Assembly (NCBI GenBank): GCA_013041835.1
Contig: JABDRH010000452.1
Location: 1-17,266 of the forward strand
DNA length: 17,266 nt
Origin: Desulfatitalea sp.
GTDB taxonomy: Bacteria > Desulfobacterota > Desulfobacteria > Desulfobacterales > Desulfosarcinaceae
Direction of reading: 5' to 3'
Shown: piece after piece, positions 3,853 through 17,266 of the stretch
Position numbering within the stretch: position 1 is the first letter of the stretch
How the letters are laid out: each line of letters starts with the position of its first letter
The notes under the pieces: model-generated
Seen by the model: the letters and a program-made list of their open reading frames with translations, nothing else
Told to the model about the DNA's origin: nothing
Databases searched by the model: none
Made by a program: the position numbers and the translations under genes

Positions 3853-4530
3853 ATGGCAATAGAGACCAAACAGGAGTATCTGGAACGGGTCATGGCAATG
3901 GAAAAACCCCGTTGTCCCCATTGTGACCATGAGATGAAGCTGTGGGAAGTGCCCCCAATCAATTTTTCCGATGGATTGGGCTGGGGAGCGCCTTTCCTGT
4001 TTCTGTGTTTTAATGACGAATGCACTCTGTTCACCAAGGGGTGGCAGGATATGCAAGAGCACTATGCCCAGCGCGCTTCCATGCGCTGCTTCAATTATCC
4101 TGGCACCGATCAATTCGAATGCATGCCGGTTTTCAGCGCCATGGGCGGCCAGGGCCAGGTGATCGATGACGAAGTGCTCGCTCAGCAGGAGATGCTCAAG
4201 GAGCAGACCAAGCGCGGTTTTTCCATACTGGCCGACTGCTATGTCAACAAAGACCTCATGACTATTATGCAATTGCTCACCGATGCCACCGAACCGGTGC
4301 GTGTGCGCATCAAGGCCGCCGAGATGATTGGTGACTTGGCTGAAGTGCAAGCCGTGGAGCCGTTGCGCTTCATGCGGGCCGGTAACCAGAAATTGCAAGA
4401 GGCCATTGAGGCCGCCATCGATCAAATCCACGAACGCCATTTTACGCGCGAATGTCCTTTTTGTGCGGAGATTATCAAGAAACGAGCCAAGATCTGCAAA
4501 AACTGCAGCAAGGAAGTGGCCGGGCAGTAA
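3853..4530 (+). CDS. uncharacterised protein with zinc ribbons at both ends and a helical middle
   Basis: I do not recognise this 225-residue protein by function. An N-terminal zinc-ribbon-like site has CPHC (Cys21, Cys24) paired with CFNDEC (Cys52, Cys57) across an aromatic, glycine-rich segment (GLGWGAPFLFLCF). Residues about 108-195 are helical and read like a short HEAT/PBS-type repeat (PVRVRIKAAEMIGDLAEVQAV, then QKLQEAIEAAIDQI). The C-terminus is a second zinc ribbon, CPFC (201-204) and CKNC (215-218), in the wording of the UPF0547/double-zinc-ribbon group. No signal peptide or membrane segment is visible, so it is probably a cytoplasmic adaptor or nucleic-acid/protein-binding factor. 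GGAG (3842-3845) is 7 bases before the ATG. It is monocistronic, divergent from the DUF2892 gene and convergent with the big - strand operon. The coding call is sure; the role is open. Confidence 0.82.
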   Translation: MAIETKQEYLERVMAMEKPRCPHCDHEMKLWEVPPINFSDGLGWGAPFLFLCFNDECTLFTKGWQDMQEHYAQRASMRCFNYPGTDQFECMPVFSAMGGQGQVIDDEVLAQQEMLKEQTKRGFSILADCYVNKDLMTIMQLLTDATEPVRVRIKAAEMIGDLAEVQAVEPLRFMRAGNQKLQEAIEAAIDQIHERHFTRECPFCAEIIKKRAKICKNCSKEVAGQ

Positions 4531-4598
4531 GGGTGCAGGAAAAAAATCGCATCTTCCTTCTTGCCTTTACGCATGGCTACGGTGTTGCATCCACGGGC

Positions 4599-4652
4599 AC
4601 ATATTCAGATATGTACCGGTGAGTGCGCCGAGTCAATGCACCCGAACTCGGC
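4599..4652. terminator. two hairpins between convergent transcripts, possible weak bidirectional terminator
   Basis: ACATAT-TCAG-ATATGT (4599-4614) and GCCGAGT (4627-4633) pairing with ACTCGGC (4646-4652) lie in the 133-base gap between the zinc-ribbon gene and the end of the - strand operon. Neither is followed by a T run, so intrinsic termination is uncertain. Confidence 0.25.
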
Positions 4653-11696: not shown

Positions 11697-11788
11697 CCGC
11701 ACCGGGCTCGTCATGGCAAAACGATGATAGGGCCGGCTTTACGCCCGCCCGCGAGGACCGCACATAGACCTTTTTTCGGATTCGTTGA

Positions 11789-11983
11789 TCCGACTCCCTG
11801 CAGGTCATCGGCCCCCTACCCTTCCGGTTTCGGTTGTCCTACCCGCCATTGCAAATGGGAACCGACAGGGCCTCCCAAGTTCCTGGTGCAATAGCGCACA
11901 GCGTGATTCCCATCCGTGTGTATGGCTTTGTTGGCCGGCCTGCGAGCCACACTATTTCTTACCAAACTAATCTGGAGGCCTAA
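11789..11983 (+). other. start-less open frame, possible decayed repeat or gene remnant
   Basis: The frame is open for 64 codons from just after a TGA (11786-11788) to a TAA at 11981-11983. It has no ribosome site or plausible start near its beginning. It translates to a proline/arginine-rich peptide including VIGPLPFRFRLSYPP. I have an unverified recollection of similar short peptides as widely repeated, over-annotated intergenic sequence in this phylum. Its end overlaps the stop of the opposite-strand NlpC-like gene by 17 bases. The rest of 11557-11966, apart from the palindrome, shows no gene. I would not annotate this as a functional CDS. Confidence 0.3.
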
Positions 11984-12485
11984 ATCCAATTTTAAATTTA
12001 AATGCCAATAATGATATGCCGCCAAAAGTTGGGGCATTGGATATCGGGCTATTATGAAAATAGCCTTTTTCAGTAACAATACCTACATGACAATTGCCAC
12101 CACCGGTACATCTATTATCGGTTCGGCCTTTAAACCTGTTAACCCAAATTACAATATCACCTTGTTTTAGCTTTTTTTTATTTTTGACTTTTTCCCAATT
12201 TTTCAAAACCTTTTCCACATGCCCAACACCAAGAAAAACTTCTTTGACCACGCCAGCCTTTAGAAGGATTATTGTAACAACCTTGGCGCATGCTAATTGG
12301 CCACCTTTTGTATCAGGACCATTTGTTCTGATCCCGTATAGTTCTACAATCCCGTTCGTTTCTTTATAATTATCCCGATCTAATGCTTTACTTGCATACT
12401 CATTTATAATTTCTGCAGTTTCAGCCCGCGCAGGAGAAACAATTAAAAAGACATAAGCAATTATGAATAATAGCTTCATTTTCAT
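11967..12485 (-). CDS. secreted NlpC/P60-like cysteine hydrolase, AT-rich
   Basis: The 172-residue protein begins with a clear signal peptide (MKMK, hydrophobic core, SPARA cut after residue 21). The mature part follows the NlpC/P60 (papain-like) plan: QLACAKVVTIILLKAG with candidate nucleophile Cys66 at a helix start, KLKQGDIVIW (105-114), then NCHVGIVTEKGYFHNS with candidate His133. Such enzymes usually cut peptide bonds in peptidoglycan, here in the periplasm or outside; amidase specificity cannot be read. Other cysteines (126, 132) might form a disulfide. One sampled 60-base line (12181-12240) is about 33% G+C, against about 73% for a line of dus (11041-11100), so recent acquisition is likely. 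No good ribosome site precedes the ATG at 12485; a TATAAA three bases upstream could give a near-leaderless mRNA. A second ATG at 12479 is possible. Confidence 0.72.
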   Translation of the reverse strand: MKMKLLFIIAYVFLIVSPARAETAEIINEYASKALDRDNYKETNGIVELYGIRTNGPDTKGGQLACAKVVTIILLKAGVVKEVFLGVGHVEKVLKNWEKVKNKKKLKQGDIVIWVNRFKGRTDNRCTGGGNCHVGIVTEKGYFHNSPISNAPTFGGISLLAFKFKIGFRPPD

Positions 12486-12717
12486 GATTTATACCGGCCA
12501 ATGACAAAACACAATGCTTTTTACGGAGCACAGCGGAGTAAAAATCCAATGTTGCAACGGCCGTTACGGCCATGGATCGATTCCAAAACCTCTTGGAAAG
12601 ATCGGAGATTTCCAATAAGGTAGGCAGCCTGAAATGATCGCTCCCCAGGCCCGGCGCCATGCGAATTGTTCGCGTATTGACGAGATTAGTGGAAGCGATA
12701 ATGCACAAGAGGCTGAG

Positions 12718-14649
12718 ATGACATTGCTCAAGCACCTATTTGAACCGATTACGATTGGTGGTCTTACGGCCCGGAATCGCATTCTCATGTCACCCATGAG
12801 CGTGAATTTCGGAGTGGATGATGACGGAAACGTTACCGAACAGCTTACAGCGTATTTCATCGCCAGGGCCAAGGGCGGTGCCGGCATGATGCTGGTAGGT
12901 GGCGCCGCCGTGGATCCGGGCGGGATGGAGGCGCCGAGGCTGCCGGGTTTATGGGATGACGCCTGCATTCCCGCCCTTCGGAAAATGGCGTCGTCAGTTC
13001 GGCCTTACGGCGCTAAGTTCGGCGTCCAGATGATGCACGGCGGCCGGCAATGCATGCACGACAATAAAGTGGCGCCTTCTCCCATTGCGGCCCCTGCCTT
13101 GGCCAAAGGCATCCCCCGGGCCCTTTCTATTGCACAGATTCATCAGATGGTGGCCGCATTTGGGGATTCGGCCCGGCGATGCAAGGCGGCCGGATTTGAT
13201 TTTATCGAAATCCATGCGGCTCATGGTTATCTCATCAATCAGTTTATGTCCCCCAACGCCAACAAACGATCGGACGAATATGGCGGGTCTTTTGAAAACC
13301 GCATTCGGTTCATGATGGAAGTGTATCGCGACATCCGAAAAAAAGTCTCCGATGATTTTCCGGTGGGCGTGAGGATCAATGGCGATGATTTTATCCGGGA
13401 CGGGTGGACGCTGGAAGAAGCGATCCGGCTCGCGCAGATTCTGGAAGAGCAAGGGGTGGACTATCTTCATATTTCCGCAGGCGTTTATGGCTCAACCCAA
13501 CTGACGATCCCTTCCATGTATGCCAGCCATGGTTGCTTTGTTTATCTGGCGGCGGCTGTCAAAAGGCAAGTCTCCATCCCGGTGGTGGCGGTCGGCCGGA
13601 TAAAACACCCGGAATTGGCCGATCGGATTCTCAAAGAAGGAAAAGCGGACATCATCGCCATGGGGCGGGCGTTGATCGCCGATCCTGATCTTCCACAAAA
13701 GGCGGCGGCAGGCGCGTATACTCAAATCCGCAATTGCATCGGATGCTGCCGGGGCTGCATTCAATCCGTGTTTGATCAGGAGCCGGCCTTTTGCGTGGTC
13801 AACCCGGAGATGGGCCGAGAATATGTCATGGAAGATGTTGGAAAAGCGGAAAAAACCAAAAAAGTTCTGGTTGTGGGGGCAGGTCCGGCCGGTCTTGCCG
13901 CTTGCAGGTCCGCCGCTATTCGAGGGCATGATGTCATCCTCATTGATGCGCACGGATATCTTGGAGGGCTGTTAAGACTCGGAGCGCTGGCACCCGGCCG
14001 GGGTGAACTGATGGACATTATCGGGTTTTTTCAAAATGAACTGGAACGACTAAAGGTTGAAATCCGCTTGAATGTGGCGCTTTCAAAAGAGGTGATGGAT
14101 GACATCAGGCCTGAGCAAGTCATTATCGCCACGGGCAGCCTTGCGGATACCCCTATCATTAAAGGTCTTTCCCAGACACGCATGGACCTTTGTTCTGTCA
14201 CCGAAGTATTTGAAGCAAGCGTGGGCACGGGTGACCGTGTTATTGTTATCGGAGGGGGACAGGTCGGGCTGATGACCGCGGATTTTCTGGCTGAAAAAGG
14301 CAAAGAGGTGGTGGTGCTTCATCGCGGCGCGCATTTTGCCGAAGAAATGTCCAGCAATGACAGGTATTACCTTCGCGAGCGCCTGAAGCAGGGCAATGTC
14401 ATACTGTACAAAAAAGTGGCGATAAAGAGGTTACTCTCAAACCAGGTCGTTTTTCGCTCGGATAATCAGGAAAAATGCCTGGATGGTTTTGATACGGTGG
14501 TTTTTGCGGAAAAAATGGTTTCAATGGGTCAATCTGTGCAAATGCTCAAGCCATACAACATCACCGTCCATGTGATCGGCGATGCGAAAGCGGCTCGCGT
14601 TCTACAATATGCCATTGAAGAAGGAGAGCAGATCGGCCGTGAGCTTTGA
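12718..14649 (+). CDS. FadH/enoate-reductase-type NADH:flavin oxidoreductase (Old Yellow Enzyme family)
   Basis: The 643-residue protein is a three-part flavoenzyme. Residues 1 to about 335 form the FMN-binding OYE barrel, with MMHGGRQ (105-111), the active-site strand IEIHAAHGYLINQFMSP, and AMGRALIADPDLP. A 4Fe-4S site follows, CIGCCRGC...FCVVNP (Cys340, 343, 347, 359). The rest is an FAD/NAD(P)H dinucleotide-binding module with VLVVGAGPAGLAA (383-395) and VIVIGGGQVGL further on. Electrons pass from NAD(P)H through FAD and the cluster to FMN, which reduces an activated C=C bond. 2,4-dienoyl-CoA reductase, enoate reductase and bile-acid BaiCD/BaiH types share this plan, so the substrate is open. 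AAGAGG lies 5 bases before the ATG at 12718; earlier in-frame starts lack homology. Base use is less GC-rich than dus or obg. It seems monocistronic. Confidence 0.9.
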   Translation: MTLLKHLFEPITIGGLTARNRILMSPMSVNFGVDDDGNVTEQLTAYFIARAKGGAGMMLVGGAAVDPGGMEAPRLPGLWDDACIPALRKMASSVRPYGAKFGVQMMHGGRQCMHDNKVAPSPIAAPALAKGIPRALSIAQIHQMVAAFGDSARRCKAAGFDFIEIHAAHGYLINQFMSPNANKRSDEYGGSFENRIRFMMEVYRDIRKKVSDDFPVGVRINGDDFIRDGWTLEEAIRLAQILEEQGVDYLHISAGVYGSTQLTIPSMYASHGCFVYLAAAVKRQVSIPVVAVGRIKHPELADRILKEGKADIIAMGRALIADPDLPQKAAAGAYTQIRNCIGCCRGCIQSVFDQEPAFCVVNPEMGREYVMEDVGKAEKTKKVLVVGAGPAGLAACRSAAIRGHDVILIDAHGYLGGLLRLGALAPGRGELMDIIGFFQNELERLKVEIRLNVALSKEVMDDIRPEQVIIATGSLADTPIIKGLSQTRMDLCSVTEVFEASVGTGDRVIVIGGGQVGLMTADFLAEKGKEVVVLHRGAHFAEEMSSNDRYYLRERLKQGNVILYKKVAIKRLLSNQVVFRSDNQEKCLDGFDTVVFAEKMVSMGQSVQMLKPYNITVHVIGDAKAARVLQYAIEEGEQIGREL

Positions 14650-14672
14650 AGCTTGCAAGGTCGATGAAGGGC

Positions 14673-16589
14673 TCACAGTTGGAAGATATGCAAGTGCAAA
14701 CGGCGTGAGAGTTCTTCAAATACTTTGATTCCCCGCAAACTGTTGCCCCTGCGGTCGAGCGGCGGGGAGTACACGGCGATGCCCATTCGGCCGGGCACGA
14801 CCCCCACGATGCAACCGCTCACTCCGCTTTTGGCCGGGATGCCCACCTTGCAGGCCCACTCGCCGGCAAAGTCGTACATGCCGCATGTGTGCATGACGGT
14901 GAGCAGATCCCGCGCATACTCGCCTTTCAAGGCGCGTCGGCCCGTGAGCGGGTTGATGCCGCCATTGGCCAGCGTCGCCCCCATGACCGCCAGATCCCGG
15001 CTGTTGACGATGACGCTGCATTGCTGCAGATATAAATCCATGGCCTGGCCGATATCGCCCTCGATCATCCCGAAATTTCGCAGAAGATAGGCGATGGCCC
15101 AGTTTCGGTCGTTGCCTGCCCTTTCGGACAGGAAAGCCGCTGTGTCTAAATGGGCCGGTCGGCCGGTATAACGCTGGTACGCAGCCAGCACGCGATTGAG
15201 ACGCTGTGCCGGGCCCTTGCCTTTGATCAGGCTGGCAACGGCCAGGCCGCCGGCATTGACCATGGGATTGTGGGGGCGCTTGGAAGCGGTTTGGACTTTG
15301 ATGACGGCATTATACGCATCGCCGGTCGGTTCCACGCCCACGCGTTTGAGCACCTCGTCCCGGCCGTGATCCTCCAGGGCAAGGCCGTACGTCATTAGCT
15401 TGGATACCGACTGGATGAGAAAGTCGGCATCGGCATCGCCGGCCGCCACGCTCTGCCCCTCGGTTGTGACCGCGCATATGGCAAACTGGCGGCGGTCTAC
15501 ATACCGCAACCCTGGTTCGCTGACGTAGATCTCGCCATGGTCGACCCCACGGTACTGTGCATGAATGGCTTGGAAAACGGGTTCGATGTCCGCCACGTCG
15601 GTGGATGAACGGCTGATCGTGGAACAGAGGCCACGCTGGGGTCGGCAGAAGCTATGACATCGATAGGTATTTGAGATTTCTTCCAGGGCGCGAACTCCCC
15701 GAACCGTTTTATGGCGGCGACCCAGCAAGGGGGAATAGGCTGCCAACCCCATCTGCCCGGGCACCACCGCCAAGATGGCGCCGGCGAGACCGCTTTTGGC
15801 CGGAATCCCGACGCGGTAGGCCCATTGTCCGGAGTAATCGTACAACCCGCTGCTGAACATGATGCTAAGTAAATGGCAGACATATTGGGAAGATACCGCA
15901 CGAACCCCGGTCAGCGGATGAATGCCGCCGTTGGCCAGCGTTGCTGCCATGAAAGCAAGATCCCGGCAGGTTACGGATACCGAGCATTGGTGGGCATACA
16001 ACTCGACCGTGGCCTCCACATCGGCCGATAGGTGTCCCTCGCTCATCATCAGGTAACCGATTGCCCGGTTTTGATTGTCCAGGCGGCGGCGGGAATTCAG
16101 GACCTCAGCGTCAAAACCGACCGGATGCCCCACATACCGGCTAAACATCCTTTGCAAACGGCCGATCCGGGCTGTCGGCGTTTCCCCCTTGATCAGGCTG
16201 GTCGTCGTCACGGCGCCGACATTGACCATTGGATTGAAGCGCCCTTCGCTGACTTGATCGTGCTGGATCATCGAATTGAAGGCGTCGCCTGTGGGCTCCA
16301 CGCCGACACGCTCGCGCACGAACGCCTCCCCGTGATCTTGCAGGGCCATGCCATAAACGAAAGGCTTGGAAATGGATTGCAGCGTGAAGTTTTTTTCGCA
16401 CTCGCCGGCGGTATGGGCCCTGCCGGAAACCATGACGGCACAAACAGCGAAGTCATCGGGGTCCGCCGCCGCCAGTTGTGGTAGTATCCGCGAGGGACGG
16501 CCGATTTTCAGCGGTAGGTACTTATGGTAAATCTGCCGTAGGAAGGCCGACATATCGTCTTCGATCTGGCGTGCTGATAAAACCGACAT
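14673..16589 (-). CDS. tandem-domain glutaminase (two GlsA domains in one chain)
   Basis: Glutaminases of this serine-dependent (beta-lactamase-like) family hydrolyse glutamine to glutamate and ammonia. A normal one is about 310 residues; this is 638 and holds two complete copies, about residues 12-306 and 336-630, joined by a linker with three cysteines (311, 315, 322). The catalytic SxxK is S72-K75 in copy 1 and S394-K397 in copy 2. NPMVN, QCSV, LANGGI.PLTG, SG.YD and VGIPAKSG recur in both, always 322 residues apart. Against E. coli GlsA2 (recalled), copy 2 keeps the substrate-site residues equal to Ser66, Asn117, Glu161, Asn168, Tyr192, Tyr244 and Val262. Copy 1 has Arg167 for Glu161 and Leu268 for Val262. 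There is no signal peptide or membrane segment, so it is cytoplasmic. AAGGG (16599-16603) is 9 bases before the ATG. Convergent with the flavoenzyme gene. Confidence 0.95.
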   Translation of the reverse strand: MSVLSARQIEDDMSAFLRQIYHKYLPLKIGRPSRILPQLAAADPDDFAVCAVMVSGRAHTAGECEKNFTLQSISKPFVYGMALQDHGEAFVRERVGVEPTGDAFNSMIQHDQVSEGRFNPMVNVGAVTTTSLIKGETPTARIGRLQRMFSRYVGHPVGFDAEVLNSRRRLDNQNRAIGYLMMSEGHLSADVEATVELYAHQCSVSVTCRDLAFMAATLANGGIHPLTGVRAVSSQYVCHLLSIMFSSGLYDYSGQWAYRVGIPAKSGLAGAILAVVPGQMGLAAYSPLLGRRHKTVRGVRALEEISNTYRCHSFCRPQRGLCSTISRSSTDVADIEPVFQAIHAQYRGVDHGEIYVSEPGLRYVDRRQFAICAVTTEGQSVAAGDADADFLIQSVSKLMTYGLALEDHGRDEVLKRVGVEPTGDAYNAVIKVQTASKRPHNPMVNAGGLAVASLIKGKGPAQRLNRVLAAYQRYTGRPAHLDTAAFLSERAGNDRNWAIAYLLRNFGMIEGDIGQAMDLYLQQCSVIVNSRDLAVMGATLANGGINPLTGRRALKGEYARDLLTVMHTCGMYDFAGEWACKVGIPAKSGVSGCIVGVVPGRMGIAVYSPPLDRRGNSLRGIKVFEELSRRLHLHIFQL

Positions 16590-17075
16590 GATACTTCACC
16601 CTTGAGTTCTTCGGTGGTTGTGGCGCTATTTCCAGGTTCGAGACCCTTTATCATTGTCGTTTTTCAAAAACCACGCCAATGCAAATGCCATCATCGGCCG
16701 GATGGGCCGTGACGCATTGCAAATAGGCATGATAGCATCGCATGGAAACCGTTAAGCCGATTGAGACAAGCATGGCGCGCCTGTTGGATGGATTTGTTTT
16801 AATACAATATTGTAGCCTGCAAGGCGCTTTTTCGACATTTTTGTCAAGGCAGGAATGGCGCCACCAATCGAACAAAAAAGCACCACGATATCAATTTATT
16901 CCCCCAAAGCTGCGATTCATCCCCCATATATGCATTTCATGTTTTTAGAGTTGTGTATTGATGAGCAAAGACTAAGCATTAGGGAATAGTGGTGCAGGTA
17001 AAGAACCATCGACGCCAATGTTGGGATTGCAGTGATGACTTGTTAACATTAACGATTGTTTGGAGGAGGTAGACG
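16590..17075. other. 486-base intergenic region, divergent glutaminase/lipoprotein control region
   Basis: No convincing gene is visible. It contains a perfect 12-base palindrome TACAATATTGTA (16803-16814), a short GCCT-GCA-AGGC hairpin just after it (16815-16825), and a - strand TTGACA (16847-16842) that lacks a well-spaced -10. The part from 16860 to 17040 is AT-rich. It must hold the start signals for the glutaminase (-) and the lipoprotein gene (+), but I could not fix either promoter. Confidence 0.5.
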
Positions 17076-17266
17076 ATGTGGCGACGATTGTGGCTGGGAG
17101 TTATTTTGGTGATCTTCGTGGGAGCTGTGGGGTGCCAGGGAACCGATACAGGCGGACAGGAGCCGGACTCGCCGCCGCAGGCGTCGCCATCGGCGCCGTT
17201 GGATCCGCCAACGGCGGCGCCGCAAGACGTTGTTCTGCGCGGCATGCGCGTGTTCGATGTGCAGGC
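17076..17266 (+). CDS. lipoprotein, 3' end beyond the window
   Basis: An open frame of 63 codons runs off the window end. It begins MWRRLWLGVILVIFVGAVGC, a lipoprotein signal peptide with a lipobox AVGC and lipidated Cys20. A low-complexity Pro/Ala/Ser linker follows (about residues 29-50), then DVVLRGMRVFDVQ where a folded domain seems to start. A very strong ribosome site GGAGGAGGT (17062-17070) lies 5 bases before the ATG. It would be anchored in the inner or outer membrane; the residues after Cys (Gln-Gly) do not suggest the Asp+2 retention signal. The family cannot be named from this fragment. Confidence 0.85.
   Translation, partial: MWRRLWLGVILVIFVGAVGCQGTDTGGQEPDSPPQASPSAPLDPPTAAPQDVVLRGMRVFDVQ

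Follow-up and report, generated by a model that had tools for sequence, protein, structure and literature searches.

A single open reading frame of Desulfatitalea sp. that seems to encode two glutaminases in one polypeptide raises the questions (i) whether such a tandem gene is genuine; (ii) whether both of its halves can act as glutaminases, as was claimed in a prior account based on the DNA letters and their translations (below, the sequence-only reading), which described "two full catalytic domains"; and (iii) whether the arrangement is unique. The gene lies on contig JABDRH010000452.1, of which a stretch of 17,266 nucleotides (the window) was analyzed. We found that the tandem is real, that its N-terminal half carries changes at two substrate-site positions, that a second protein with the same layout and the same changes occurs in a different phylum, and that tandems with one intact and one altered half recur among bacteria. 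The reading that we favor, and to which we give about half of our belief, is that the protein consists of a catalytic C-terminal glutaminase and a fused, built-in N-terminal partner that would not itself be a glutaminase.

Two glutaminase domains in one open frame

The frame runs uninterrupted from an ATG start to its stop, and both Pfam (PF04960; whole-protein E-value 9.6e-212, 701.4 bits vs a cut-off of 27) and NCBIfam detected glutaminase twice in the product. When the genome to which the window belongs was searched in six frames, the two PF04960 matches fell at 15648-16502 and 14682-15515, within the same open frame; each half separately exceeded the curated cut-off (337.4 and 368.7 bits), and no further PF04960 match was found in this draft genome, which is 86.9% complete. 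PF04960 is the only Pfam family in the protein, with neither a STAS (PF01740) nor a cyclic nucleoside monophosphate (cNMP)-binding domain (PF00027) behind the glutaminase.

The N-terminal half (D1) and the C-terminal half (D2) align without gaps at an offset of 322 residues and share 135 of 316 residues. The recurrence of landmark motifs at one constant distance, on which the sequence-only reading had rested, was confirmed position by position (94/416, 119/441, 201/523, 225/547, 260/582 and 275/597, with SxxK at 72/394). It had further held the duplication to be old, and the agreement of codons at only 66 of 130 residues identical between the halves (methionine and tryptophan excluded) fits this view.

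The same account had named an assembly error or a frameshift, fusing two neighboring genes, as what would refute it. We scanned a collection with one genome per species for exact matches to six short peptide patterns and obtained 60 stretches with 42 relatives, one of which (L031, from a Verrucomicrobiia metagenome-assembled genome, MAG) is a tandem of the window layout. This 657-residue protein can be aligned with the window protein nearly end to end (320 of 627 residues identical, 3 gap positions) and has the same odd N-terminal residues; as it stems from an independent MAG, an assembly join is very unlikely. Although the window's genome is a fragmented draft of 693 contigs, and L031 likewise lies on a MAG contig, we regard an artifact as hardly credible, given also the open frame, 11 more tandems described below (one on a 6.9-Mb contig, G1407), and the kinship of the contig with its genus: pieces between about 3850 and 11560 have counterparts, 68–77% identical, in every one of the 10 other genomes of this genus, in a few cases distributed over two or more contigs. 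The tandem gene region, in contrast, gave only a 126-base match in these genomes, to the ordinary glutaminase of G003, so that the tandem seems to have arrived, specifically in this lineage, in an authentic piece of chromosome.

In a search for relatives covering 60 genomes, including the window's own, seven contained a match to the protein, of which just one, that in the window's genome itself, is a tandem. Among viral contigs, 11 stretches fit one of two short patterns and none is a relative; the places found in four phage records span 0.85–0.93 kb, the length of one domain, and those in the best 10 of 208 plasmid records 0.92–1.0 kb.

Residues, predicted structure and history of the halves

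The four halves of the two tandems were aligned with 92 homologs having a single glutaminase domain (96 rows; 17 loci had been removed beforehand as duplicates or fragments). Seven catalytic positions, mapped by position, are given in human numbers: Ser286, Lys289, Asn335, Glu381, Asn388, Tyr414 and Tyr466, most of them as listed in excerpts of PMC9060542 and Lys289 as in an excerpt of PMC13204110. In human GAC, according to excerpts of PMC10912226, the substrate is hydrogen-bonded to Glu381 while Tyr249 closes over it.

Six of these positions, all but Glu381, are unchanged in each of the four halves. At the Glu381 position, Glu is present in all 92 single-copy homologs and in both C-terminal halves, and Arg in both N-terminal halves (Arg167 in the window protein). 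Similarly, the Val484 position, which is Val in 87 and Ile in 5 of the single-copy homologs, is Leu in both N-terminal halves (Leu268). The window D2 therefore has all seven catalytic residues (Ser394, Lys397, Asn445, Glu489, Asn496, Tyr520 and Tyr572) together with Val590, while D1, with its Ser72-Lys75 dyad intact, keeps six and lacks the Glu. Having lost two substrate-site residues, the N-terminal half does not support the description as a second full catalytic domain; the motif list behind that description omits the substrate-contacting Glu. On the other hand, the suggestion that the halves are non-equivalent is borne out more strongly than had been argued, by Arg167 and Leu268. In contrast to the single-copy homologs, 88 of 92 of which have the lid tyrosine (Tyr249), none of the four halves has one (Ile35 in D1 and Ser357 in D2 of the window protein), this column being less sure in the insertion-bearing actinobacterial rows.

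On the basis of the conserved residues and the known mechanism, we propose that the C-terminal half hydrolyzes glutamine, releasing glutamate and ammonia, and that Ser394 acts as the nucleophile and Lys397 as the base. Although the family pattern and the dyad are preserved in the N-terminal half, the charge of its pocket would be reversed by Arg167, and because of this reversal and of Leu at the Val484 position it should not bind glutamine normally. It may take the place that the partner subunit has in an ordinary glutaminase dimer, packing on the catalytic half and so steadying or tuning it, and perhaps it binds glutamate, 2-oxoglutarate or another acidic ligand. The model of the window protein (predicted local distance difference test, pLDDT, 90.3; predicted template modeling score, pTM, 0.91) implies a defined arrangement of the halves, for which an intramolecular dimer of the GlsA type is plausible. 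The C-terminal half is close to human GLS and YbaS; the N-terminal half is barely tested by the matches listed.

A tree built on 79 of the 96 rows, a phylogeny of the halves having been among the checks that the sequence-only reading proposed, paired the N-terminal halves of the window and L031 proteins with each other (100/99) and the C-terminal halves likewise (100/98). In approximately unbiased (AU) tests, some clade groups of which were named after the trees had been seen, a recent duplication private to the window lineage was rejected (p-AU 0.0002), which, together with this pairing, makes the tandem most likely older than the split of the two proteins and supports the claimed old age of the tandem. 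A single clade of all four halves was not rejected (p-AU 0.264); both a duplication and a fusion of two glutaminases are compatible with these data.

The branches of the two D1 halves (0.68, and 1.37 for the long branch of L031) exceed those of the D2 halves (0.58 and 0.5), as would be expected if the N-terminal half were a degenerating copy, kept for stability and without a role beyond folding. We consider this unlikely. Of the 22 columns invariant in the single-copy homologs, the N-terminal halves keep 19 and 20 (the C-terminal halves 21 and 21) at an overall identity of the two tandems of 51%, and private residues, among them R117, R167, E184, L268 and K294, are common to both, just as the C-terminal halves share Y426 and G448, among others. 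The changes in the N-terminal half thus look as if confined to particular places, unlike general decay.

Several observations nevertheless weigh against a catalytic C-terminal half with a non-glutaminase partner. D2 is not pristine: besides the missing lid tyrosine, its residue 448 is Gly where all 92 single-copy homologs have Ala, and to judge from these residues its activity could be low or altered. Conversely, neither the Ser-Lys dyad nor either catalytic tyrosine has been lost from D1, although a dead domain could do without them. In simple identity counts, the window D1 matches the L031 D2 (142/317) at least as well as the L031 D1 (139/319), and its nearest relative is a single-copy protein (L100, 49%), so that the pairing of the D1 halves rests on the tree and on the shared odd residues. 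The single-copy rows of the alignment behind the window model fall on the C-terminal half, leaving the N-terminal half with little but L031, and the L031 model, for which the alignment was thinner (25 rows; pLDDT 83.2, pTM 0.53), does not settle how the domains are placed. Finally, just two proteins of exactly this type, the window protein and L031, were found.

Tandem glutaminases in other bacteria

We surveyed further genomes with a two-sequence profile, or, for the 389 genomes of the window's order, with the window protein itself. The genome sets are overlapping samples, in which only the first few candidates per genome were scored, and tandems may therefore have been overlooked. Only the window's own tandem was found in its phylum (297 genomes) and in its order, and only L031's own in two sets around L031 (288 and 196 genomes); none was found in 99 genomes around L035 (titled Planctomycetaceae). 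However, the phylum of L033 (titled Phycisphaerae; 324 genomes) yielded nine tandems (L119, L120 and L122-L128) and one adjacent gene pair, and that of L057 (titled Acidobacteria; 317 genomes) two tandems (L154 and L155). Thus, tandem glutaminases recur across bacteria, and with 12 others found the arrangement is not unique, although the other glutaminases among the chains that we met are, as had been stated, mostly single-domain or fused to STAS and cNMP-binding domains. Long glutaminase frames around L031 were rejected as tandems, each of those fetched having one PF04960-type domain (three were Pfam-scanned). A 603-residue frame, L109, has its glutaminase at residues 294-598 behind an unmatched N-terminal stretch of about 290 residues and may be over-long.

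In the 11 new tandems, the N-terminal half is intact at all seven catalytic positions (11/11), while the C-terminal half has invariably lost the catalytic Lys (to Asn in ten, to Val in one), mostly also Tyr466 (10/11) and Ser (7/11), and retains both Asn, Glu381 and Tyr414. The window protein, whose C-terminal half has Lys397, does not belong to the L033-phylum type, in which this Lys is replaced by Asn; it forms with L031 a type of its own, having Arg and Leu for Glu and Val in the N-terminal half and corresponding halves that pair in the tree. Each of the 13 tandems found joins a half with all seven positions intact to an altered one, with opposite polarity in the window type.

A clade of all tandem halves including L155 was rejected (18 rows, p-AU 0.017), so that tandems arose at least twice, while one clade of the window type and the main L033-phylum type was not (16 rows, p-AU 0.233); the halves of L119 and L120 were outside both sets. 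Nor was a grouping of the altered halves rejected (p 0.47). L155 (genome G1785), the two halves of which group as sisters (100/99), with neither Ser nor Lys in the C-terminal one, is a separate origin. The adjacent pair (G1561, L144:11135-15786) consists of an intact glutaminase gene followed by a separate glutaminase-like gene in which, of the seven positions, only Lys is changed, to Asn, and looks like an unfused form of the tandem.

These comparisons bear on two further explanations of the window protein. Since the dyad, both Asn and both Tyr are present in both halves, the two might be active glutaminases, their fusion merely fixing the dimer or raising the dose; this is improbable, since both window-type tandems have Arg for Glu and Leu for Val in D1, and since in each of the 11 others just one half has all seven positions intact. 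The N-terminal half could instead be a working amidohydrolase of changed specificity, with an Arg in its pocket, for an amide bearing an acid or keto group where glutamine has its amino group (e.g., 2-oxoglutaramate), the protein being bifunctional. The intact dyad leaves this second-amidase account open: six catalytic residues are kept in both D1 halves while the substrate Glu has reversed its charge, a real contrast to the 11 tandems whose altered half lost the catalytic Lys. As no substrate-pointing neighbor gene was recognized in the window, and D1 is the less similar half when the two tandems are compared (139/319 identical, against 180/316 for D2), we judge this no more probable than two active glutaminases. 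A slightly less probable, wider version holds that tandems make up a class that recurs but has been overlooked, each glutaminase having its own regulatory twin; the window's twin would then be a novel Ser-Lys enzyme hydrolyzing an acidic amide, and one chain would handle both glutamine and a related omega-amide.

It is an active question how the subunits of glutaminases assist each other; catalysis by human glutaminases is coupled, according to excerpts of PMC10912226, to oligomer state and loop closure. In natural fusions of an intact and an altered half, the ratio of the two is set and the symmetry is lost, so that subunit cooperation becomes directly testable.

Gene neighborhoods and known systems

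Features of the tandem gene in the window
Feature	Position	Strand	Remark
Tandem glutaminase gene, 638 aa	14673..16589	-	PF04960 in two stretches, one open frame
N-terminal half D1, residues 1-322	15624..16589	-	PF04960; boundary chosen by us
C-terminal half D2, residues 323-638	14676..15623	-	PF04960; boundary chosen by us
Linker, residues 311-328, with Cys311, Cys315 and Cys322	15606..15659	-	Model confidence below 50 at 320-328
Arg167 codon	16089..16091	-	Position is Glu in 92/92 single-copy homologs
Leu268 codon	15786..15788	-	Position is Val in 87, Ile in 5 of 92

The linker indeed has three cysteines within twelve residues, as the sequence-only reading had pointed out, but they were rejected as a conserved feature, L031 having no Cys at the matching places. 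A promoter scan of 14500-17266 gave no sigma-70-like site.

The tandem gene is convergent to that of a long-form flavin oxidoreductase (12634-14649, plus strand; PF00724 and Pyr_redox_2). The best NCBIfam matches of the latter product, mycofactocin OYE 2 and BaiCD, are both below their cut-offs, and DNA similar to this gene lies elsewhere in genomes of the genus. At lower window coordinates, 11967-12485 (minus strand) encodes a small, secreted-looking protein without a Pfam match, whose Cys and His we take, as an impression, to be placed as in CHAP/NlpC-like hydrolases. Two dispersed repeats are also present, one at 4528-4620 (matched at 72–77% by nine further places of this genome) and one at 11713-11870 (pieces at 85–90% on contigs C663, C691, C505, C632 and C559).

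Some flanking genes were Pfam-scanned at five (L138-L142) of the nine loci with tandems in the L033 phylum. A class-II amidotransferase-transglutaminase protein (PF13230, PF01841) adjoins the tandem on the same strand in L139, L140 and L141; the flanks also hold Alpha-E (PF04168; L138, L140 and L141), CP_ATPgrasp (L140 and L141) and a DUF2126-transglutaminase amidoligase (L140, L141 and L142). On the other side of the L139 tandem lies a type VI secretion DotU-like gene. According to excerpts of PMC6376114, ATP-grasp, alpha-E and transglutaminase genes co-occur in the Anbu operon. It is possible that these tandems are an unrecorded component of an amidoligase-type cluster, which would link a poorly understood cluster to glutamine hydrolysis. 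No such cluster was recognized around the tandem within the window. The adjacent pair of G1561 follows a type III glutamine synthetase, and the L031 tandem precedes an asparagine synthase.

Among the papers listed in searches of the open literature, judged by title, beginning of abstract and term counts, with unlisted papers, subscription journals and database pages outside this scope, none describes a tandem PF04960 protein; Pfam or InterPro may already list a double PF04960 architecture.

Among characterized glutaminases, YbaS (PDB 1u60) and Micrococcus Mglu (3if5/3ih8) have the same fold, align with the C-terminal half at 39–41% identity and share the seven catalytic positions with D2, but carry one glutaminase domain per chain. 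Human GLS/GAC and GLS2, from which the residue names were taken (excerpts of PMC10912226, PMC13204110 and PMC9060542), use the Ser-Lys mechanism proposed for the window tandem; unlike the window protein, whose halves lack the lid tyrosine, they are homo-oligomers and filaments in which Tyr249, with Phe318, locks in the substrate. The STAS/cNMP glutaminases L083, L086 and L074 resemble the tandem in having PF04960 in open frames of 610–662 residues; however, the rest of each is a cNMP-binding domain (three of three scanned), with STAS above the cut-off in L083 and L086 and below it in L074. Pseudoenzyme partners in general, such as PDX1.2 of vitamin B6 synthesis, are inactive paralogs that partner or regulate an active enzyme, whereas the window pair is fused in one chain and its N-terminal half is a putative regulator. 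The tandems of the L033 and L057 phyla likewise join one intact and one altered PF04960-type half, the altered half being the C-terminal one there and the N-terminal one in the window type.
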